25,510 nucleotides of DNA from a virus. The notes under the pieces were generated by a model. The model searched no databases, had not been told where the DNA came from, and worked only from the letters and a program-made list of their open reading frames with translations. The DNA is taken from the IMG/VR virus record IMGVR_UViG_3300025823_000021, positions 1 to 25,510 of that record; one strand, 5' to 3'. Below, one piece after another: positions 3,830 to 17,693 of the stretch. The translations under genes were made by a program, and so were the position numbers. Positions within the stretch are counted from its first letter, which is position 1. Every line of letters starts with the position of its first letter.

Positions 3830-4771
3830 GATTGCTCCTGTGCTGGATGCGCCGACCCGATTGCCGGCTGGTTTCAACCTCGCCCTCAGTGCATCGAGGG
3901 TTTGGGCGTACGTCTCGACCGCATCCGCGAATCCCACATCGAGGGCGGTTTCGGCGTAGAAGACTCCCGCTTCAGTCGCGAACACTGCGTCGGCGCCCAT
4001 GCCGCGATTGCGCGCGACCGTGTTGACGAAGATCACGCGGAGACGGTCGATCTCGGCCTGGAGGTTGTTCCGGGCCGTGTCGTTCAGCGGTTCGGTGTCG
4101 ATGTAGTCGCCTTTGCGCTCGCCGCTGGTCAGCGTCGTGTACTTGACGCCGATGCGGCGGTCCATCTCGCTGAACTCGACATGCGTCGCGATGACGCCAA
4201 CCGAACCGACGCCGCCTGTGCGCGGAAGCGAAACGCGCTCCGCCGAACTCGCGAGCGCGTATGCGGCAGAGAACGCGTTGTCGTTCGCGATCGCGTAGAC
4301 TGGCATCCGCGCCCGCGTCTCGAAGATCAGGTCGGCCAGGTCGAACGTGTCAGTGACGGTTCCGCCGGCACTGTCGACGTTCAACAGAATCGCGCGGATA
4401 CCCGCTTCGCTGCGCGCGCGTTCGATCTGCTTTCGAATCCTGGCCAAGCGCCACTTGAACAGGCCGCCGTTGACCTCGATGACGGCAATCCCGTCGATCC
4501 GCGTGAAGTCGTCGTCTCGATACCGGTCGTAGAAGTAGAACCCGAACGCTTCCGGAGCCGGATCGCCTCCGCGCGTGGCGTGGTTGAGCGATGCGAACAG
4601 CGAGTCGGCGCGACCCTTTTCGAGCAGTAGCGGCGTGTTGTAGAGCGCTGCAACCAGTTCGGTCGGGTAGCCCTCTTCCGATACGACGATCGGCTGGACG
4701 CCGGATGTAGGCTCGGAGCTACGCGGCGTTTGCCTCGTCGTCGCCTTCGACTTCGTCGTCCGCTTCGGCAT
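3326..4771 (-). CDS. Capsid maturation protease, S49 (SppA-like, lambda gpC-type) fused to scaffold
   Basis: A 481-residue protein. After a basic N-terminal tail (MPKRTTKSKATTRQ), residues about 90-290 are a peptidase S49 domain. It includes DSAGGTVTDTFDLADLI, the nucleophile motif NDNAFSAAYALASSAERV with Ser168 as the likely catalytic serine, and TSGERKGDY with Lys220 as the likely general base. It cleaves scaffold and portal tails during head maturation. The C-terminal third is Gln/Glu/Ala-rich and predicted helical, as in lambda C where it overlaps Nu3. The ATG at 4771 is chosen because AAGGGGGG precedes it; an upstream extension is low-complexity and lies over the portal gene. It overlaps the portal end by 53 bases. 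Confidence 0.9.
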   Translation of the reverse strand: MPKRTTKSKATTRQTPRSSEPTSGVQPIVVSEEGYPTELVAALYNTPLLLEKGRADSLFASLNHATRGGDPAPEAFGFYFYDRYRDDDFTRIDGIAVIEVNGGLFKWRLARIRKQIERARSEAGIRAILLNVDSAGGTVTDTFDLADLIFETRARMPVYAIANDNAFSAAYALASSAERVSLPRTGGVGSVGVIATHVEFSEMDRRIGVKYTTLTSGERKGDYIDTEPLNDTARNNLQAEIDRLRVIFVNTVARNRGMGADAVFATEAGVFYAETALDVGFADAVETYAQTLDALRARLKPAGNRVGASSTGAIMATLTEEQKQFLAACNEQNIKEAEERGRQAALAATTPTTVTTEGDGAISLDAARSQSEQAAVSARNAEREAHQKRVAEVKDICTLAGCPQRAIDFIEKGVSIEDIRKTLMDEAASRDAATDVSGQHAGATGGQPVQIDRNAIYQSRASVATPSAKERRVWDQASPSN

Positions 4772-6269
4772 CGCCGCCCCCCTTGTTCGCAGCCGCTCCG
4801 CTGTCGCGGTCGTTCTCGGTTCCGGTGTCCATCTGAGAGGCTCTTGGCAAGCCGAGTTCTTCCTCGCGCTCGCGGTCTGCGACCCGCTCGCGGTCCAGCT
4901 CGACCGCCGACACACCGGCGTAGTTCGGGACTTCGCGCGTCCGGGACGTGAGGCCCAGGTCCAGGGCGAGAGCCACCGCCTTGATCTCTTGCAGCGGGTT
5001 GACGTACTTCTGGCCCGTCATCGCGACCCACTTCGGCCGCATCAGGATTCGTACCCGGTCGCGCTCTTCTGCGGGCAGCTTCAGTCGCCCCGAAATCAGC
5101 GCCGTCTTCAGCCAGCGCGCGAACACGGGCCGGTTGAACTGGAATTGCAGGACGCGGCGTGAGTGCGCGCGCACCCGGCGGAACTGCTCGATGGTCCCTG
5201 CGCGAATCGAGCTGTAGTTGACTTGCGCGAGGTCGCTCGTCAGCCCCTCGTACGTGACACCCGAGCCTACGGCGACGCCGCGGAGGTTGTTCCGGACGAA
5301 TGCCTCGTGATCGTCTGCGCCTGTCGGCGGGTCTGAAAACTTCACATCGTGGCCAGGCTTCAGCTTGACCGAGATACCCGGTTCGAGTTCGACGTCGACG
5401 TCGCCATCGTCATCCTCAGCACCGGAGGTATTGACGTTCCCGAACACGCTCCCGTCGCCGGTCGGAATCGTTTCGATCGCGACGAGCATATTGCGGATCT
5501 TCTGGTTCAGGATCTTGGCGTCGTTCGACTCCTGGAGGTCGTGGAGCGTTGTCAGCACGGCGGACAACGACGGGACGCCGCGAAGCTGGCCAGGGCGCGT
5601 CGGCGTGAAGACCTGGAGTACGTTTTCCGCCGGCACCGCGACGCGCTGCTGTCCGGCGATCATGTAGTCGCCGGGATGCTGGCGCCACATGTGGTAGGCG
5701 GCTCGGCGACCTATCGGATCGAACTCAATTCCGGCTCGAATCCTGCGACCGCCCGGCAGTAGCGCGTTGTAGCTGGCGTCCACTAGCTCGGACTCGAGGA
5801 TCTGCAACTGGAGCGGGACACTCAGCCCGTCTTCGGCTTGTCGGTCCCGGAACCGCGCGAACACGTCGCCACCTTCGCGGTACGACTGGACGACCATCGC
5901 CTGGAGGCCGTAGAAGTCCTGCACGCCGTCGGCGTCACACTCTTCGACCCAGTCGAGCCAGGCCGCTTCGATCTCTTCGCGGAACGCCTTCGACAGCGTG
6001 ATCGGAGTCGGTGCGATCCCCTCACCGACCACGGAATCGACGAACACTCCGATCGCGTTGAGCGCCCACGGATTGACGCGAGCCTCGGCGCGCGAGCGGC
6101 GCCTGAGAGTCTGGACATCACCGCCGAGAAGCGCGTTCACGTGCGCGTTCGGTGCGTACCAGCCGTGCGCGCGGCGACCCGTTCCGGCAGCGTGCCAGGC
6201 CGCGTCGGCGTACTTCGTGACGACCTGTTTGCGGGTGAATCGATCCGCGATCCGGCTCAGCAACCCCAT
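4719..6269 (-). CDS. Portal protein (lambda gpB-like, Phage_portal_2)
   Basis: A 516-residue portal protein. The N-terminal part has WHAAGTGRRAHGWYAPN, then RRRSRAEARVNPWALNAIGV, which is characteristic of lambda-type portals. It continues with AMVVQSYREGGDVFARFRD and the core PTRPGQLRGVPSLSAVLTTL. Twelve copies form the ring at the capsid vertex through which DNA is pumped and to which the tail attaches. I start at the ATG at 6269, which overlaps the stop of the upstream W gene (TGATG), rather than the TTG nine bases earlier, because the overlap implies coupled translation. The C terminus is acidic (EADDEVEGDDEANAA), and its last 53 bases overlap the protease start. Confidence 0.93.
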   Translation of the reverse strand: MGLLSRIADRFTRKQVVTKYADAAWHAAGTGRRAHGWYAPNAHVNALLGGDVQTLRRRSRAEARVNPWALNAIGVFVDSVVGEGIAPTPITLSKAFREEIEAAWLDWVEECDADGVQDFYGLQAMVVQSYREGGDVFARFRDRQAEDGLSVPLQLQILESELVDASYNALLPGGRRIRAGIEFDPIGRRAAYHMWRQHPGDYMIAGQQRVAVPAENVLQVFTPTRPGQLRGVPSLSAVLTTLHDLQESNDAKILNQKIRNMLVAIETIPTGDGSVFGNVNTSGAEDDDGDVDVELEPGISVKLKPGHDVKFSDPPTGADDHEAFVRNNLRGVAVGSGVTYEGLTSDLAQVNYSSIRAGTIEQFRRVRAHSRRVLQFQFNRPVFARWLKTALISGRLKLPAEERDRVRILMRPKWVAMTGQKYVNPLQEIKAVALALDLGLTSRTREVPNYAGVSAVELDRERVADREREEELGLPRASQMDTGTENDRDSGAAANKGGGDAEADDEVEGDDEANAA

Positions 6270-6497: not shown

Positions 6498-8642
6498 TCA
6501 CCCGAGATACTTCGACCGACGCTTTCTCTGCCTCGGTTGCGGCTCTGTTTTCGGTACCGGTTCCACCGAGGGAGCCGGCGCGGAGGCGATCCGCTCCAGC
6601 AGCGACCGCTCCGCCTCGAGGTCCATCCCCATCGAGAGCGCGGCGTAGTAGGCGCCGTCGCCGTACACGTGGGTGTCGAGTGCCTCGTTGCGAGAACCTT
6701 CTTTTTCGAGCATCCAGACGAACTCGTCGCGCCCAGCCTTGTTGGTCCGGGTCGCGCGAACCTCTGCGGTCAGCTGGTCGAAGTAGTCCGACGCTTTCAG
6801 CGTCCCGTCGCCCAGGTCCACGCCGAGGTCGCCCGGCAGTCGTCCAAACATCTTCCCGTTGATGCGCTGGCCCGGGATCGACCCCACCGGGAAGCGCGGG
6901 AAGTGGATGTAGCCGGGCCCGGGTTCGAGGATCCGGTTGAGTGAATACTGGAGCGTCGTCTTCGCGGGATCGACGTTGATCGTGTAGAGCGGGATCTTCC
7001 CGATGTTGTTGCGCGTCGGCTCGCGGACGAACACGTTGCCGGCCGGACCCGCGCGTCCCTTGATCCCGAACAGATACGCGCGTCGGCCATCCGGCGTCGC
7101 GTACACGGCCCGGTTGCGGCAGAACTCGTACGCGCGCTGCGCGTGGTGGCCCTGTGTGTCCAGGCACGTCGAGCGGATGTAGTCGACTCCGCCGCGCTCC
7201 ATCGGGAGCGGCCGGAGCATCAAGTCCCACATCTCGCCCCAGAGCGGCGGCGCGGATGGATCGCCGCGTAGGACGTAGTACGCGAGTTTCCACGACTCGT
7301 CGTTCAGGCCGTATCCGGTGATCTGGCCTTCGAGCCGATCGTCCTGGGTGTCGAACCCGGCGGTGATCAGAACCACCTCTTTGGGGACGACGACCAGGCC
7401 GGCGTGATTGGTCGGGTACTCCTCGAGTCGCTCGTTCAGATCGCCGCGGACCTTCACGCGCTGCTGCTTCCACGGCTCGCCAAGCACGGTGTTGATGAAC
7501 GCCTTCACGCGCTCACCCTTGCCCTGGGCCGTGATCCACTCTTCCGCGAGGTGCGGGAGCGACATGTTCGGCCACAGCGCGTACAGCCCGGAGAGTCGGA
7601 ACCCCGCGGTGCCGTTGAATGGCTTCGAGGCGATCCAGCCGATATCCGGGTCGTCTTCGTTCTCAGACGCGCGCCGGATCGCCCGGTGGCGCTGCGCCTC
7701 CGACCAGGGCTTCTCGCAGTCCTCGATTTCGCAGTAGTAGCGAGCGGTCGTCGGGAGATGCTCGCCGCGCGCGCCCTTCTTCCAGCGCACCTGTTCCCAG
7801 CGCAGCGTCTGGGGATGGCCGCAGTGTGGGCACGGGACGAACAATTGTCGCTGGTCGCTCTCCTCGTAGGCTTCGCAGATCCGATCGCCTTCGTCCGTCG
7901 GGGAGCTGTTCATGCCGATTTTCCGATTCGGAAACGTCGTCGTTCGCCGCGTCGCGATCGTCACGGGGTCGCCTTCGCTACCGGCCGACGCTGGGAAGCG
8001 GGCTACCTCGTTGAACAGGACCACGCGGATCGGGTCTCCGGCCAGGTCGGCCGCGACGTTCGCGCCGACCATCCGGATCGAGCCGCCCGGGAACTGCTTC
8101 TCGAGTGTCGTGTTGTCTGAGTCGCGGGACTTCGGGTCGCCGATGATCTGCCGGAGGACCGGCGTGTCGCGGATCATCGGCGCGAGTCTCGTCTTCGCGT
8201 TGTGCAGCGCGCCGTTTTTCGTCGGCTCGACGATCATCACCGGCGACGGGTCCTGGTGGACGAAGTACCCCACCGGGTTGAACACGCCGCCCTCACTCTT
8301 CGCCAGCTGGCTCGCCATCATCTGGACGACGGTCGTGACGCGCGGGTCACTGTACGCGTCCATCACCTCGCGCATGTACGGGACGCGTGAGGTCTTCCAC
8401 TGACCGGAGTACGCGGACGTGCCGGGGCTGACGATTCGGTATTTGTCAGCCCACTGACTGACTGTGAGTTTCGGCGGTGGCCGCAGCAGTTGAAGCGCGA
8501 CTCGCGCGGCTCTTCCGAGTGCCGGGTGCCCCTGTAGTTGGATCTGCGGCGACTTCGACTTCCGCTTCCGAGATCGAGGAGAGCGCGGCTTCGACCGCTT
8601 CGCGGATGAGGGTCGTTTTTTCCGCGAGCGTTTCGCAGTCAT
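6498..8642 (-). CDS. Terminase large subunit, lambda gpA family
   Basis: A 714-residue packaging motor and nuclease. It has a basic Lys/Arg/Ser N-terminal tail, then LTVSQWADKYRIVSPGTSAY, the usual start of the GpA family. The ATPase has a Walker A region QMMASQLAKSEGG at about 107-119. The Walker B segment VVLFNEV, at about 207-213, carries Asn211 where the family usually has Asp, before Glu212. A zinc knuckle is formed by Cys271, Cys274, Cys304 and Cys309. The nuclease domain opens with TAGFDTQDDRLEGQITGYG. The protein pumps DNA into the prohead and cuts concatemers. The ATG at 8642 has only a weak ribosome-binding site and lies 197 bases inside the small-subunit gene, so translation is probably coupled. 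Confidence 0.93.
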   Translation of the reverse strand: MTAKRSRKKRPSSAKRSKPRSPRSRKRKSKSPQIQLQGHPALGRAARVALQLLRPPPKLTVSQWADKYRIVSPGTSAYSGQWKTSRVPYMREVMDAYSDPRVTTVVQMMASQLAKSEGGVFNPVGYFVHQDPSPVMIVEPTKNGALHNAKTRLAPMIRDTPVLRQIIGDPKSRDSDNTTLEKQFPGGSIRMVGANVAADLAGDPIRVVLFNEVARFPASAGSEGDPVTIATRRTTTFPNRKIGMNSSPTDEGDRICEAYEESDQRQLFVPCPHCGHPQTLRWEQVRWKKGARGEHLPTTARYYCEIEDCEKPWSEAQRHRAIRRASENEDDPDIGWIASKPFNGTAGFRLSGLYALWPNMSLPHLAEEWITAQGKGERVKAFINTVLGEPWKQQRVKVRGDLNERLEEYPTNHAGLVVVPKEVVLITAGFDTQDDRLEGQITGYGLNDESWKLAYYVLRGDPSAPPLWGEMWDLMLRPLPMERGGVDYIRSTCLDTQGHHAQRAYEFCRNRAVYATPDGRRAYLFGIKGRAGPAGNVFVREPTRNNIGKIPLYTINVDPAKTTLQYSLNRILEPGPGYIHFPRFPVGSIPGQRINGKMFGRLPGDLGVDLGDGTLKASDYFDQLTAEVRATRTNKAGRDEFVWMLEKEGSRNEALDTHVYGDGAYYAALSMGMDLEAERSLLERIASAPAPSVEPVPKTEPQPRQRKRRSKYLG

Positions 8643-9036
8643 GGAGCCCCGTCGCGACGTCGTCCGGGAGCGACATGAATGCCGAGCGGACCTCGTGGAG
8701 AACTTGACTCCACGCCAACTGCACCTGGGGCGCGGGAATCAGCTTCCCGTCGAGGACGTCGAGTTCGCGTTCTTTGAGTTCAGCCTGGGCCGTCTTCAGC
8801 CGGCGCTCGGCTTCCTTGATGTCGACGATCTTGCCGCCCTGGCCGAGCTTGGTCTGGAGATCGACGATGTACGCCTTCGCACACTCGATCAGCGGATACC
8901 GGCCGCGCGACGCCTTCGGGATGACACCCTCTTGCGCGAGCTGCTGGACGCGTCGCTCGGTCAGGTTGAACAGCGCGGCGAGCGTTCCGACGTCGACTGT
9001 GTTCTGGGTCTTACTCTTCGTCTTGCGCGCTGCCAT
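8446..9036 (-). CDS. Terminase small subunit, Nu1-like
   Basis: A 196-residue protein. Residues about 12-60 are a winged helix-turn-helix, VDVGTLAALFNLTERRVQQL followed by AQEGVIPKASRGRYPL and an IVDLQTKL helix, the lambda Nu1 DNA-binding fold that recognises the packaging site. A long helical segment (IKEAERRLKTAQAELKEREL) and a region with AWSQVLHEVRSAFMSLPDD follow, as in Nu1-family proteins. The ATG at 9036 is preceded by CGGAGCGG. Upstream in-frame sequence overlaps other genes and is rejected. The C-terminal 65 residues overlap the large terminase gene in another frame. Confidence 0.85.
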   Translation of the reverse strand: MAARKTKSKTQNTVDVGTLAALFNLTERRVQQLAQEGVIPKASRGRYPLIECAKAYIVDLQTKLGQGGKIVDIKEAERRLKTAQAELKERELDVLDGKLIPAPQVQLAWSQVLHEVRSAFMSLPDDVATGLHDCETLAEKTTLIREAVEAALSSISEAEVEVAADPTTGAPGTRKSRASRASTAAATAETHSQSVG

Positions 9037-9163
9037 CACCGCTCCGGTGCAGTTCGCGCGGACCCATCGGCTCGACCTCGCCGCAGATCGGGCACCACGC
9101 CAACCAGGCCGGGCCCAGGACGGCGGTGCAGTCGTCGCCTGGACACAGGACGCGATCAGGCAA
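9011..9163 (-). CDS. 50-residue zinc-ribbon protein with a TTG start
   Basis: A short frame between the four-repeat zinc-ribbon gene and the small terminase. It begins TTG at 9163, eight bases before the TGA stop of the gene upstream, and ends TAA at 9011, 26 bases inside the small terminase gene. It encodes LPDRVLCPGDDC, then LAWCPICGEVEPM and an acidic tail, giving one CxxxxC/CxxC zinc-ribbon knuckle. Function is unknown; a DNA-binding or protein-binding accessory to packaging is possible. The Cys spacing and close fit to its neighbours support it as real, but the TTG start has only a weak upstream GGGATG. Confidence 0.5.
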   Translation of the reverse strand: MPDRVLCPGDDCTAVLGPAWLAWCPICGEVEPMGPRELHRSGDGSAQDEE

Positions 9164-9761
9164 TCGGCATCCCGATGTCGTACCCGGATTCGGAATCTCG
9201 GGCGCGCAGGAAGTCGGCGATCTCGGAACGGGTCGGGCACCGGTCGAGTGATTCGATCGGAGGCATTTTCGCGAGAATCTCGGCGCAGTCGTCTTCGGTC
9301 AGGGTGCTCTCTTTTCGGACGATCCGATCGATTCGGCCCACACTCGCGCAGTCCTGGCAGACCTTCGCGTGTCGCGAAAGGCCGAGCACGGGTTCACCGC
9401 AGTGCTTGCAGGGTTTCGGTTCAGCGATCGCTTTCTTGCGGAAGCACTGGAGACAGATCCTCGCCTGCCTCGCACGGTTGACGATCGGGCGAGAGCAAGC
9501 GCTACATCGCTTTGGCCCTACCCGCTTCGTGGGCGTGTATGGCTTGCGGCGTCGAACCAAGCCATGTCCGGACGCTGCACAGTCGAGACAATACTTGGCG
9601 CACTTCGAACGCCCCGTGATTTCACCGTCGCAGTGACGACAGATTCGCGGCTTCACTACCCGTCGCCGTCCGCCGCGCCCTTCGTCGACGCAGTCCAGGC
9701 AGTAGCAGGCGCCCGCTGACCGGTTCACGATGGGTCGTTTGCAGGCGCGACATGGTTTCAT
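9156..9761 (-). CDS. Four-repeat zinc-ribbon protein, unknown function
   Basis: A 201-residue protein with four copies of one knuckle. Each is CxxC, exactly 13 residues, then CxxC: Cys4/7-21/24, Cys41/44-58/61, Cys86/89-103/106 and Cys118/121-135/138. The first and third copies share PIVNR after the first pair. Linkers are Arg/Lys-rich (RRRVVKPR, LVRRRKPYTPTKR). The C-terminal 60 residues have no Cys pair and contain an acidic helical part. It is probably a nucleic-acid or protein-binding factor. Lying just ahead of the terminase genes, it may act in packaging-site recognition or in late transcription. There is no obvious ribosome-binding site at the ATG at 9761; a weak GGGGG lies upstream. 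The repeats suggest internal duplication. Confidence 0.75.
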   Translation of the reverse strand: MKPCRACKRPIVNRSAGACYCLDCVDEGRGGRRRVVKPRICRHCDGEITGRSKCAKYCLDCAASGHGLVRRRKPYTPTKRVGPKRCSACSRPIVNRARQARICLQCFRKKAIAEPKPCKHCGEPVLGLSRHAKVCQDCASVGRIDRIVRKESTLTEDDCAEILAKMPPIESLDRCPTRSEIADFLRARDSESGYDIGMPIA

Positions 9762-9838: not shown

Positions 9839-10123
9839 TTACCCGCTGAGGGAACGGCCTTTCTCAGTACCTTTTTCTGTGTGGTCCTCGTCTCCATCAT
9901 CCACCGGCAGCTCCGTCATGTCGTGGAACTGCGCGGCCAGGTCGAACGTCTCGCGCGATTCGCCGAGCACGGACACGGAAGCGACGGCGGACGCCCAGGT
10001 GCCCGCGTCGACCTTGAACTGCATCGCGATACCCGAGTCCGCCTTCGGGGTGTTCATCTTCGTGATGACGACACCGCCGTCGGGAGCGCGTTCGAAGTAG
10101 AGTCCGTCGACTGCATGGAACAT
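9839..10123 (-). CDS. Conserved-type small phage protein, unknown function
   Basis: A 94-residue protein starting MFHAVDGLYFERAPDGGVV, with a central TWASAVASVSVLGES and an acidic C terminus. The pattern of a hairpin followed by DAGTWASxVASVS is familiar from small proteins of many tailed phages, but no function is known to me. I choose the ATG at 10123 because AAAGGA lies at good spacing upstream; the longer frame to 10201 is low-complexity. It has no Cys pairs or membrane segment and is probably cytoplasmic. Confidence 0.65.
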   Translation of the reverse strand: MFHAVDGLYFERAPDGGVVITKMNTPKADSGIAMQFKVDAGTWASAVASVSVLGESRETFDLAAQFHDMTELPVDDGDEDHTEKGTEKGRSLSG

Positions 10124-10129
10124 CGGTGT

Positions 10130-10264
10130 TCCTTTCTGCGCCGGTGTGCGGCTGCGAGAAGTGCCACGATCTGGAGCGCGATCGTGGTGGGTTCGGGGCA
10201 ATCGATCACCTTGCCCGGTTCAAAGAAGATCCCGTCAGTCCAACAGGGCGGGTCGCTCGGGAGC
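10130..10264 (-). pseudogene. Displaced C-terminal end of the secreted protein, with a PEP-CTERM-like tail
   Basis: In the +1 frame after the 10235-10630 gene, the minus strand reads PCWTDGIFFEPGKVIDC, then PEPTTIALQIVALLAAAH and RRRK (Pro-Glu-Pro at 10189-10197; RRRK at 10132-10143). The codons look genuine, with mostly G or C in third position. Proline-Glu-Pro, a hydrophobic span and an Arg cluster are the three parts of a PEP-CTERM sorting signal. The frame can be joined to the upstream gene at the run of six C's at 10268-10273, so one indel would restore a single precursor. The frame does not stop right after the Arg cluster as a true PEP-CTERM should, which weakens the idea. Confidence 0.4.
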
Positions 10265-10630
10265 CGCGGGGGGAAACCTGCCGACCAATGGCCCCACCTC
10301 CGCTGGTCCGACTTCGTTCGTACACTGGACTGTGACTGAGTGCGCGAAGCGGAGCGGGCCGACCGGGACAGTCACGACGACGCCGGGTTCCAGGTCAGCA
10401 TCCACCTGGAACACGTTGCCATCGATCACCACAACGCACGTCATCAGGTAGCCTGTGCCGTCGCCGCCCACGTACAGCGAGGAGCAGTAGCGACAGTCGC
10501 CGTCTTCACACGGCCACTCGGTCAACGGCGGAGGGCTGACGCATTCCGGATCGATGGCGAAAGCGGGGTGGCACGGCCCTACGATCGAGATGACTGCGAT
10601 GGCAGCCAACCATCTCGCCGCCGGCATCAT
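10235..10630 (-). CDS. Secreted cysteine-rich protein, probably frameshifted
   Basis: A 131-residue protein with a clear signal peptide: MMPAARWLAAIAVISIVG, then PCHPAFA as the likely cleavage region. The mature part has several Cys residues (DPECVSPP, WPCEDGDCRYCSSLY, LMTCVVVI, VTVQCTN), suggesting disulfides outside the cytoplasm, and beta strands. The ATG at 10630 overlaps the stop of the gene upstream (ATGA). The last 15 residues after a CCCCCC run are Pro/Ala-rich and ordinary-looking, while a coding-like continuation exists in the +1 frame. An exported protein within the virion operon is unusual; it might be expressed in the lysogen or alter the cell surface. No family is recognised. 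Confidence 0.6.
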   Translation of the reverse strand: MMPAARWLAAIAVISIVGPCHPAFAIDPECVSPPPLTEWPCEDGDCRYCSSLYVGGDGTGYLMTCVVVIDGNVFQVDADLEPGVVVTVPVGPLRFAHSVTVQCTNEVGPAEVGPLVGRFPPAAPERPALLD

Positions 10631-10980
10631 CGCTCCAACTTCGAGATCGAGTAGGTCGCCCCATTCGGGTTCGAATGGATCACCCGCAGCTTCGCGTGCG
10701 CGCGCGGCATCTTCTGCGCGATGACATCAGATGCCGGAGTGTCACCACTGCCGACATGGTAGACCGTCTGAACAGCCGAGTTCTGCGTCAGGCCGAAACT
10801 CTTCCAAACCTTGTATGCGCCATCGACCGGATCTTCCACCAGGATCTGGAGCGTCAGCGTCGGAGGCGTCCCATCGATCGCGGTGATGTGCCAGATCAGC
10901 GAGAAAATCCCGCTTGCGCTTTGGAACACAGTTGAGTCGTTGATGGTGGCGGTTCGCTCGGCCAGATCAAAGATGACCAT
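10627..10980 (-). CDS. Small beta-sandwich phage protein, probably virion-associated
   Basis: A 117-residue protein starting MVIFDLAERTATINDSTVFQ, with strands SLIWHITAIDGTPPTLTLQI and QTVYHVGSGD, ending in a charged KLER. The pattern of a strand, TAxxGTPxLTLxI and then a second sheet resembles small beta-sandwich proteins found among phage head or tail accessory genes. Function is unknown. The ribosome-binding site GTAGGAG precedes the ATG at 10980. The stop overlaps the secreted-protein start. Confidence 0.6.
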   Translation of the reverse strand: MVIFDLAERTATINDSTVFQSASGIFSLIWHITAIDGTPPTLTLQILVEDPVDGAYKVWKSFGLTQNSAVQTVYHVGSGDTPASDVIAQKMPRAHAKLRVIHSNPNGATYSISKLER

Positions 10981-10988
10981 CTCGACTC

Positions 10989-11645
10989 CTACAGTCCTGG
11001 GAAGCGGATGCGCTCGAATTCCCGCTTGGCCTTAGGGGTGAAGTTCGCCTCGGCCGTGCGCTGTGCAACGCGGTAGAACTCGACGGTCGGGTCGAGGTCG
11101 GCTGAATCGCGCAGCACGTACGCGAGGCGGATCGGGTAGCGGCGCTTGCCGGTGCGAACGAAGATCCTGTCTCCGTCGTTCGAGAGAAACCCGCGACCAC
11201 CAGGTCCGGTCAGGGCTGACGGAGTGCGACGCTTGCCTACACGGCCCCGGGCGCCACGCTTGATGTTGACCGGAATCGCCAATCGACCGCGGAACGTGAT
11301 GCGCTCCACCCGACCGGACGGCCCGATCGTCGCGCCTTCGCGATGCTGGAGAAGAATCTCCTCGGACTTCGAAGGCGCTCCAGTCGGAGACGTACCGCGC
11401 GGCGTGACGTACGCGACCAGGCTGTCCGGCTTCGCACCGAACGACCGGAATCCTGCGATGAACCGGCCGGCACTCGCGCCCGCGTTCGGAAACGTGCGCT
11501 CGATGTGTTCCTGTTCGGCCTCGCGGATGTCGAGCGCGGTACGCGACAGTGCGCGCGCCATCGCGCGACCGACTTCTTGATTGCTCAGCTTGACGAGGTT
11601 GCGCCGGAGCTCGCGCGTGTCGAGCGTGATGAACGACTCGGCCAC
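10989..11645 (-). CDS. Minor tail protein Z-like (lambda gpZ / HK97 gp10 class)
   Basis: A 218-residue protein. The N-terminal helix FITLDTRELRRNLVKLSNQE, ALSRTALDIREAEQEH and GRFIAGFRSFGAKPDSLVAY match the gpZ/gp10 group of tail-completion proteins. It has a basic middle part (RGRLAIPVNIKRGARGRVGK) and a C-terminal helix. In lambda, Z lies between FII and U and prepares the tail for joining; here it is the first late gene, far upstream of the terminase. The GTG at 11645 has GGGAG at good spacing. The upstream terminator at 11655-11694 ends only a few bases before that site. Confidence 0.7.
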   Translation of the reverse strand: MAESFITLDTRELRRNLVKLSNQEVGRAMARALSRTALDIREAEQEHIERTFPNAGASAGRFIAGFRSFGAKPDSLVAYVTPRGTSPTGAPSKSEEILLQHREGATIGPSGRVERITFRGRLAIPVNIKRGARGRVGKRRTPSALTGPGGRGFLSNDGDRIFVRTGKRRYPIRLAYVLRDSADLDPTVEFYRVAQRTAEANFTPKAKREFERIRFPGL

Positions 11646-11881: not shown

Positions 11882-12142
11882 CTACGAATGATTTGCTGTA
11901 GCGGCCGCTGAGAGCATCCCAGGCAGCAGCGGGACGATCGCTCGCAACTGCTGCGTCGTGACACCCTGGCGCGACAGGTACCACGCGGCCGAGATCAGCT
12001 TCACTTCGGATTCGGTGTAAAGCGCTTGATTTCCGCTTGCCACACGCGCGCTCGGCTCGACGATGCCCTTCTCTCGCCAGCTCCGTAGGCGGCTGCGCGG
12101 GATGCCGACGATCCGGCTGACCTCGCGCGGTTTGTACGTCAT
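11882..12142 (-). CDS. MerR-like helix-turn-helix protein
   Basis: An 86-residue protein starting MTYKPREVSRIVGIPRSRLR. It has the winged helix-turn-helix of the MerR superfamily: EVSRIVGIPRSRLRSWREKG, then an ALYTESEVKLISAAWYL segment, then QGVTTQQLRAIVPLL. It has no effector-binding domain, so it resembles small excisionase or regulator proteins of phages. The ATG at 12142 overlaps the upstream stop (ATGA). It is the last gene of the early operon and lies directly beside the repeat-rich control region, so it is a natural candidate for the protein that binds those repeats and turns on late genes. An excisionase role is possible, but no integrase is visible. Confidence 0.72.
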   Translation of the reverse strand: MTYKPREVSRIVGIPRSRLRSWREKGIVEPSARVASGNQALYTESEVKLISAAWYLSRQGVTTQQLRAIVPLLPGMLSAAATANHS

Positions 12143-12705
12143 CGCGTGCATCCGCGCCCCATCCGCTGCTTCACCACCAGCCGCGCACGGTTCACCCATC
12201 TCCAGACAATATCGCGTGTCCACCACTCGGGAAACGCCGGCTGGACTTTCAATCCGTTCGCATACTCCGCCGCGCTTTGGTAACTGCCGATCTTCGGGTG
12301 CAGGTACACGCGCCACGCCTGGAGAGCGAACGACCAGCGATCCGCCTCCCACGCACGTGGACGGTTGTCCATGATCGAGCGGAGGTACTCGTACTCGTCG
12401 AGATCGCGGACCAGATGACGCTCAGGGTCCGGTGATGGGCCTCCCCCTGCCTTCGGAACGTCGAACTCTCCCGACTCGTCCTGCGTCCACGGCTGCCGGC
12501 ACGACGCGCAGATTTCGACCAGGTGCCAGCGACCAGGAAGGCGCTTGCCGCGGAACTCGATCGTCTTCGGCCCGCCTTTGCAGCGCGCACAGATGACGCC
12601 GCGAATCGCGCGCAAGTCCTGTGCTTGGATCGAGTAGCGCGAATCGACGAGGTGGAAGTAGCGCGACGCGACCTCATCCGGTGTGTGGAACTTTCGGATG
12701 GTCAG
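12139..12705 (-). CDS. Zinc-ribbon phage protein, probable CTG start
   Basis: A protein of about 188 residues reading LTIRKFHTPDEVASRYFHLV from its proposed start. It contains one zinc ribbon: CARC, 26 residues, then CASC. The C-terminal half is aromatic and helical (WEADRWSFALQAWRVYLHP, FPEWWTRDIVWRWVN). No ATG or GTG lies at a sensible place. The CTG at 12705 overlaps the stop of the upstream gene as CTGA and has GGGAG eight bases before it, exactly like the ATGA/GTGA junctions around it. The in-frame GTG at 12924 would bury the upstream gene and is less likely. Function is unknown; nucleic-acid binding is plausible. Confidence 0.6.
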   Translation of the reverse strand: MTIRKFHTPDEVASRYFHLVDSRYSIQAQDLRAIRGVICARCKGGPKTIEFRGKRLPGRWHLVEICASCRQPWTQDESGEFDVPKAGGGPSPDPERHLVRDLDEYEYLRSIMDNRPRAWEADRWSFALQAWRVYLHPKIGSYQSAAEYANGLKVQPAFPEWWTRDIVWRWVNRARLVVKQRMGRGCTR

Positions 12706-17483: not shown

Positions 17484-17693
17484 GTGGAAGACTCCGCGCC
17501 GTTCTCGACGGGCGAAACAGTGTTCGTTCTCGCGCTGTACTTCCTACCGTGGCTCGTGGCTAAGGCGCGCGGCCACCACCAGTCGGGCGCGATCTTCGCG
17601 ACCGTCACCCTGCTCGGATGGACTGTTGTCGGATGGATCTTCGCGATGATCTGGGCGTACACCGCGATTCCGCCGGAGTACCGGCGGCGGTGA
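17484..17693 (+). CDS. Superinfection immunity membrane protein (Imm family)
   Basis: A 69-residue protein with two membrane spans: VFVLALYFLPWLVAKARG and ATVTLLGWTVVGWIFAMIWA. This is the T4 Imm-like superinfection-immunity family, with its LYFLPxxxA motif before a short loop (GHHQSGAIF) and LLGWTxxGWIxAxIWA. Such proteins sit in the host membrane and block DNA entry by related phages. The start is GTG at 17484, with AGGGGGGATC upstream. It lies next to the repressor gene, so it may be expressed in the lysogen and give immunity alongside the repressor. Confidence 0.85.
   Translation: MEDSAPFSTGETVFVLALYFLPWLVAKARGHHQSGAIFATVTLLGWTVVGWIFAMIWAYTAIPPEYRRR

Follow-up and report, generated by a model that had tools for sequence, protein, structure and literature searches.

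The window, by which we mean the whole stretch of DNA analyzed here, is the entire IMG/VR virus record IMGVR_UViG_3300025823_000021 (25,510 bases, GC ~65%). In the minus-strand late module of this lambda-type phage, the coding signal of a gene for an exported, cysteine-containing protein changes frame at a run of six C's, and the +1 frame that takes over carries a PEP-CTERM-like tail. We hold with about even confidence that this is an accessory gene which encoded a surface protein of the PEP-CTERM type, was broken in frame by a real mutation, and is now decaying.

The carrier phage and the gene neighborhood

The lambda-type late module was recognized from profile matches to the genes neighboring the focus gene, and the match of the terminase large subunit to phrog_15 means that the carrier is a tailed phage. 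The genes concerned are the following.

10989 to 11645, minus strand: minor tail or neck-type protein (phrog_1924, 4.8e-14; phrog_27, 3.8e-6), upstream of the focus gene
10627 to 10980, minus strand: preceding gene, 117 aa, whose stop overlaps the ATG of the focus gene by 4 bases (ATGA)
10235 to 10630, minus strand: focus gene, 131 aa, the frame-0 ORF
9839 to 10123, minus strand: next gene, 94 aa, with the tail frame running across its start
9156 to 9761, minus strand: double zinc ribbon gene with several CxxC modules (PF18912, 30.5 bits), beside the terminase
8446 to 9240, minus strand: terminase small subunit (phrog_57, 3.9e-27), downstream of the focus gene
6498 to 8642, minus strand: terminase large subunit (phrog_15, 9.6e-194)

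Beyond the terminase the module continues on the same strand with portal, decoration, and major head protein genes, and the cargo genes are placed between the minor tail gene and the terminase. The 117-aa preceding gene matched no family in Pfam, PHROGs, or NCBIfam, and a ribosome-binding-like site, AGAAAGGA, was recognized by inspection upstream of the start of the 94-aa gene. No confirmed IMG/VR relatives were obtained for the genes at 10627–10980 and 10989–11645 or for the 94-aa gene, and INPHARED holds no relative of the 94-aa protein.

A terminator-like hairpin (11694–11665, minus strand; 12 pairs and then TCTTTTTT) lies just before the minor tail gene and may form the upstream limit of the late operon. 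A MerR-type HTH gene (11882–12352, minus strand; PF13411, 41 bits) is located upstream of the late module, and a superinfection immunity family gene (17484–17693, plus strand; PF14373, 59.6 bits) is found near repressor-like HTH genes. The PF14373 gene together with a repressor-like HTH gene suggests a temperate life, and no integrase was seen in the part of the gene set that was scanned.

Two further IMG/VR contigs derive from the same virus, being 100% identical over 9139 and 7268 bases, and both end short of the focus gene and its break site. An identical contig begins (position 1 of L002/L095, window ~9139) immediately upstream of the small terminase subunit, at a place where one would look for a cos end. 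Relatives of the terminase large subunit were found in 13 IMG/VR loci, among which the closest different virus, L003, stands at 54%; one of its ORFs before the terminase has a DNA-methyltransferase-like DPPY motif by eye, and its minor tail gene was assigned by place and length, the phmmer comparison giving no match for that ORF. The 80 terminase relatives kept from GTDB, with identities of ≤42%, are scattered over many phyla, and RecT relatives are likewise spread taxonomically, while scans with the portal and major head protein added few relatives.

An exported, cysteine-containing protein

As assembled, the focus gene runs on the minus strand from an ATG at 10630 to a stop that ends at 10235. 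The elements discussed below are these.

10556 to 10630, minus strand: type I signal peptide, residues 1–25 (...PAFA/ID), by inspection
10268 to 10273, minus strand: C6 run, codons CCC CCC in frame 0 (G6 on the plus strand), where the coding signal changes frame
10054 to 10272, minus strand: +1 frame, open from the run to TGA (10056–10054), with coding signal only to ~10127
10132 to 10197, minus strand: PEP-CTERM-like tail with PEP, a hydrophobic helix, and HRRRK (TIGR02595, 17.9 bits)

The first-pass annotation had described an exported protein rich in Cys, and our inspection agrees with it. The N terminus has an Arg in the n-region, a hydrophobic core, and A-F-A before the cleavage site, the most hydrophobic 15-mer of the ORF falls in this signal peptide, and the ORF contains seven Cys, one of them within the signal peptide. 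That residue, Cys20, stands in the context G-P-C, and no lipobox was recognized by inspection in the focus ORF. Read as written, the ORF would yield only a soluble exported protein of 131 aa that lacks a tail.

The Cys-containing body of ~100 residues is perhaps β-rich, as judged from a single-sequence AlphaFold2 model with five strands and a mean pLDDT of 45. The best Foldseek match of this low-confidence model had an E value of 0.91, and some matches were to fibronectin-III domains, which carry little weight at such confidence. No solved structure related by sequence was found. The protein belongs to no family in Pfam, PHROGs, or NCBIfam and has no homolog among INPHARED phages at E values up to 1. 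Scans with six 8-residue patterns, which are insensitive and may miss distant relatives, returned 85 stretches from IMG/VR and 507 from GTDB contigs, none of which was confirmed. Three weak matches (E 0.0029–0.0064) among 369 whole genomes of one class were rejected, as the two inspected were apparent chance frames and the third had four internal stops.

The coding signal changes frame at the C6 run

Before the run, frame 0 has a coding score of +18.6 over 119 codons. After it (10267–10127), frame 0 drops to −25.2 over 47 codons and the third frame scores −14.9, whereas the +1 frame, which includes ...FPPRLPSDPPCWTDGIFFEPGKVIDCPEPTTIALQIVALLAAAHRRRKEHR..., scores +7.1 over 46 codons; frame 0 as assembled ends 10 codons beyond the run. 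This switch of the score from frame 0 to the +1 frame at the run indicates one coding unit split over two frames, as had been proposed from the letters alone, so that the signal peptide and the tail belong together, in support of the reading given at the outset. The signal of the +1 frame stops at the ATG of the next gene (10123), and in the overlap the frame of that gene scores +9.1 and the tail frame −1.9.

Could the +1 frame be non-coding and the real gene end at 10235? Such a coincidence seems highly improbable to us. A score of +7.1 was reached by 2 of 1940 same-strand, wrong-frame segments of 46 codons taken from 23 other genes and by 327 of 2916 antisense segments, and the lack of detectable homologs would suit a frame open by chance. 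Against this, the three plus-strand frames at the tail stretch score −2.9, −22.9, and −5.2, which leaves the +1 frame as the best of six, and its coding signal coincides both with a PEP-CTERM match and with the start of the next gene.

The second alternative is programmed +1 ribosomal frameshifting at CCC_CCC, by which the gene would give a soluble exported form and a tailed, surface-sorted form. A shift-prone codon is present at the switch, since frame 0 reads CCC CCC there, coding signal exists on either side of the run, and the available text of PMC5009743 describes shifts at CCC proline codons in the Listeria phages PSA, A118, and A500. We nevertheless consider such a mechanism quite improbable. 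The 81 nt just 3′ of the run form no RNA structure beyond chance in a calculation in which pseudoknots were not modeled (z 0.39; folding is equal or better in 137 of 200 shuffles), no homolog was found in which the site is conserved, and the 12 complete viral PEP-CTERM ORFs described below are all in a single frame. In addition, the run has a length of only six, and such runs are frequent in this genome, with seven stretches of at least six C's or G's in the window, this one included. Both points speak against a programmed and a phase-variable switch alike.

The main rival to a real mutation is that the same PEP-CTERM cargo gene is intact in nature and was broken only in the data, when bases were miscalled or misassembled at the C6 run. 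We regard an error of this kind as unlikely, though it has points in its favor: the sequence is coding and free of stops on both sides of the run, as it would be in a gene that had never been broken, and among the 14 viral PEP-CTERM contigs there is one, L144, whose gene is split over several frames in an error-like way. The absence of internal stops from both gene parts, equally expected from an assembly error, counts against decay, and the failure to find a homolog that joins body and tail counts against our main reading as a whole. On the other hand, the window has six further C/G runs of this length or longer, which may count against an error, and the end of the tail frame does count against one, as discussed below.

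A PEP-CTERM-like tail in the +1 frame

The claim that a PEP-CTERM-like tail lies in the other frame was borne out by TIGR02595, which matches it in one piece at 17.9 bits against a curated cut-off of 16 and matches nothing else in the window. Among 14 control genomes, 2 had over-cut-off matches when the search was loosened to E 10. The Pfam model PF07589 gave 13.5 bits, below its gathering score of 20.7; the Pfam model of that time caught 22% of TIGR02595 instances according to the available text of Haft et al. (2006, PMC1569441). The tail stretch PTTIALQIVALLAAA has a mean hydropathy of 1.81.

A second model of our own, built from 18 tails of PEP-CTERM-rich bacteria, gave the whole ORF 14.0 bits, a score reached by none of 200 first-order Markov shuffles of the window (best 12.1); the best among phage and prophage loci (30,252 stop-to-stop frames, 1.42 Mb) was 10.0 bits. 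The 14.0 bits are the sum of two gapped pieces, PEPTTIAL (9.4) and VALLAAAHRRRK (5.0), and a best single piece of ≥9.4 was found in five ORFs across the 200 shuffled windows and in one ORF of the phage loci. With the composition correction of HMMER turned off, the lead of the window shrinks to 17.2 versus 16.9. Since the score combines two pieces and shuffles can match a single one, this control backs the tail only in part. The case for the tail is carried by TIGR02595, by its place, and by its frame; judged from these, the motif seems to stand above chance, by the second model not overwhelmingly so.

The tail departs from those of bacteria in several ways. The first-pass annotation had cautioned that no stop follows soon after the Arg cluster, and rightly so: the tail frame runs 25 residues beyond RRRK to a stop inside the next gene, and the motif thus does not lie at the extreme C terminus. 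According to the available text of Haft et al. (2006, PMC1569441), fewer than 10 residues follow the domain in 87% of bacterial cases, with a median of three, and long post-domain tails are suspected to be non-functional. Counted from the first basic pair, 27 residues follow here versus 1–14 in bacterial loci (19 matches, one of them spurious), and the mid-tail glycines of 10 aligned bacterial tails are missing. As assembled, moreover, the signal peptide and the tail are in different frames. Because they do not form one continuous ORF and the tail is not C-terminal, we do not count the focus gene among the working PEP-CTERM proteins. The window record yielded no exosortase.

These departures bear on another interpretation, which takes the PEP for a coincidence and the tail for a plain membrane anchor at the C terminus, such as a spanin-like or superinfection-exclusion protein might have. 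In lambda, the lysis genes and bor lie upstream of the terminase, and the focus gene has the same position. The score below the PF07589 cut-off, the two-piece match of the second model with equal single pieces in five ORFs of the 200 shuffles, the absent middle glycines, and the location short of the extreme C terminus all agree with a plain anchor. The passing of the TIGR02595 cut-off in one piece does not, and we think such an anchor rather unlikely. For a spanin-like anchor in particular, a unimolecular spanin requires a lipobox before its Cys, while the context of Cys20 is G-P-C. A unimolecular spanin is also disfavored in that, by inspection, no single ORF combines a lipobox with a C-terminal transmembrane segment, the latter being found only in the other frame.

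Among 13 virus records with relatives of the terminase large subunit, two of them from the same virus as the window, TIGR02595 found no tail at E 0.1; that run included no positive, and the same search finds tails elsewhere. In a plain motif search of 95 sequences (1.38 Mb), among them the window and its copy L001, these two were the only ones with the motif. Since related phages lack it, the tail is no constant feature of this group of phages, as one would expect of cargo. The tail peptide had a single INPHARED match (E 6), in a restriction enzyme gene, and this was taken as chance.

PEP-CTERM proteins on other uncultured phage contigs

PEP-CTERM genes occur on phages, as the earlier suggestion of phage-encoded PEP-CTERM proteins would have it. 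Ten aligned bacterial tails, forming one narrow pattern, were run against IMG/VR and picked out 40 stretches. Of these, 14 were inspected and confirmed as contigs that carry PEP-CTERM tails, and the true number is at least 14. Twelve of these contigs have a complete, single-frame ORF with start and stop (181–287 aa), and signal peptides are visible by eye in most of the ORFs. The PEP ORF of L140 (1–555) is cut by the contig end. The PEP-CTERM gene at L144:4458–5093 is split across several frames and looks like the product of indel errors in the contig or a decayed gene. The proteins of L136 and L137 are identical and those of L141 and L142 nearly so, leaving twelve distinct cases. All ten viral proteins tested passed TIGR02595 with 20.0–30.2 bits, and the tail in the window (17.9) is weaker than every one of them.

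Nine of the 14 loci (all except L135, L137, L138, L140, and L141) were scanned for neighbors with PHROGs, and each of the nine has PHROG-family neighbors. Virion or lysis families neighbor the gene in five and replication-type families only in four, as listed.

L133: portal
L136 (4536–5081): flanked by head morphogenesis on one side and major head protein on the other (of the pair L136/L137, neighbors scanned in L136)
L139: virion structural family
L145: endolysin/tape-measure-type, weak
L146: tail fiber
L134: DNA polymerase
L142: helicase
L143: exonuclease
L144: helicase and homing endonuclease

L139, L140, L143, L145, and L146 form one family, 48–81% identical to L146. Its tails are PEPxxWA-like, its PEP ORFs, apart from that of L140, lie near 4370–5105, and phage-type replication or structural genes are nearby in the four loci scanned. 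No member of this family turned up at E 1e-10 among 385 genomes belonging to one class, a search that, having no positive control, carries little weight; four viral PEP-CTERM proteins tried against INPHARED gave no relative. No exosortase was found in the 14 viral records. The phage proteins would presumably use the exosortase of the host.

Proposed decay of a surface-protein gene and its possible function

In its original form, the focus gene would have been of the moron type and would have encoded, in order, a signal peptide, a Cys-containing body of ~100 residues, a linker, PEP, a membrane helix, and a basic cluster. In the model given in the available text of Haft et al. (2006, PMC1569441), a protein is exported and anchored by its tail, EpsH recognizes the PEP, and the protein is released toward the outer surface. 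If the focus protein followed this model, it would be exported via its signal peptide and held temporarily in the inner membrane by the tail, and recognition of PEP by the exosortase (EpsH) of a presumably exosortase-bearing host would then bring the body to the outer surface or the polysaccharide there. The gain for the phage might be an altered adsorption of other phages, aggregation, or matrix, and a temperate phage could change the surface of its lysogen by this route.

The focus gene has two departures from a working gene, namely the frame break at the C6 run and the lack of a stop after the basic cluster, and both would be mutations of a decaying gene. The fit with decay comes from these two together: decay accounts for both, whereas an error at the run accounts only for the first, leaving unexplained a stop that comes 25 residues past RRRK inside the next gene, in a frame whose coding signal is already gone where it ends. 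We therefore place a real break with decay first, an assembly error second, and a programmed shift last. A more ambitious proposal is that sorting by the host PEP-CTERM system is a standing phage strategy and that the focus gene supplies two forms of its protein through a +1 shift at CCC_CCC. The 14 viral contigs with PEP-CTERM tails are the reason for the first half of this proposal, and the combination of both halves strikes us as very doubtful.

PEP-CTERM/exosortase sorting is known as a bacterial system, and a report of phage-borne PEP-CTERM proteins, or of any link of the system with phages, did not emerge from the literature searched, which was judged mostly by title and lay largely outside subscription journals. 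If the proposed sorting is true, phages remodel the host envelope via the host's PEP-CTERM route, and such genes could mark phages of exosortase-bearing hosts and supply small test substrates for exosortases. The copy in the window looks broken, and complete copies such as those on L133, L136, L139, L142, L145, and L146 are better objects of study.

Comparison with known systems

The signal peptide, orphan body, PEP, hydrophobic helix, and basic cluster of the focus gene agree with the substrates of the PEP-CTERM/exosortase (EpsH) system as they appear in the available text of PMC1569441. Unlike those substrates, it is phage-borne, has its signal peptide and tail in different frames and 25 residues after the basic cluster, matches more weakly, and is accompanied by no exosortase found in the window record. 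In switching frame at proline codons CCC, the focus gene recalls the +1 frameshift genes of the Listeria phage PSA. In the available text of PMC5009743, the PSA genes that shift are those for capsid and tail-shaft proteins, and a pseudoknot or a stop codon adjoins the shift, whereas the focus run has no stop codon directly after it and no 3′ structure beyond chance in folding without pseudoknots.

The PEP-CTERM proteins of the contigs L133–L146 share with the focus gene phage-type surroundings, a PEP tail, and a record in which no exosortase was found. They differ in being mostly single complete ORFs (12 of 14) and, in the 10 tested, in having stronger tails, and none of them came up as a relative of the focus body. 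As a small exported cargo gene upstream of the terminase in a lambda-type gene order, the focus gene also resembles lambda bor and other surface-protein morons. Bor is a lipoprotein, whereas the focus protein, which has no lipobox, has a putative exosortase-type tail.
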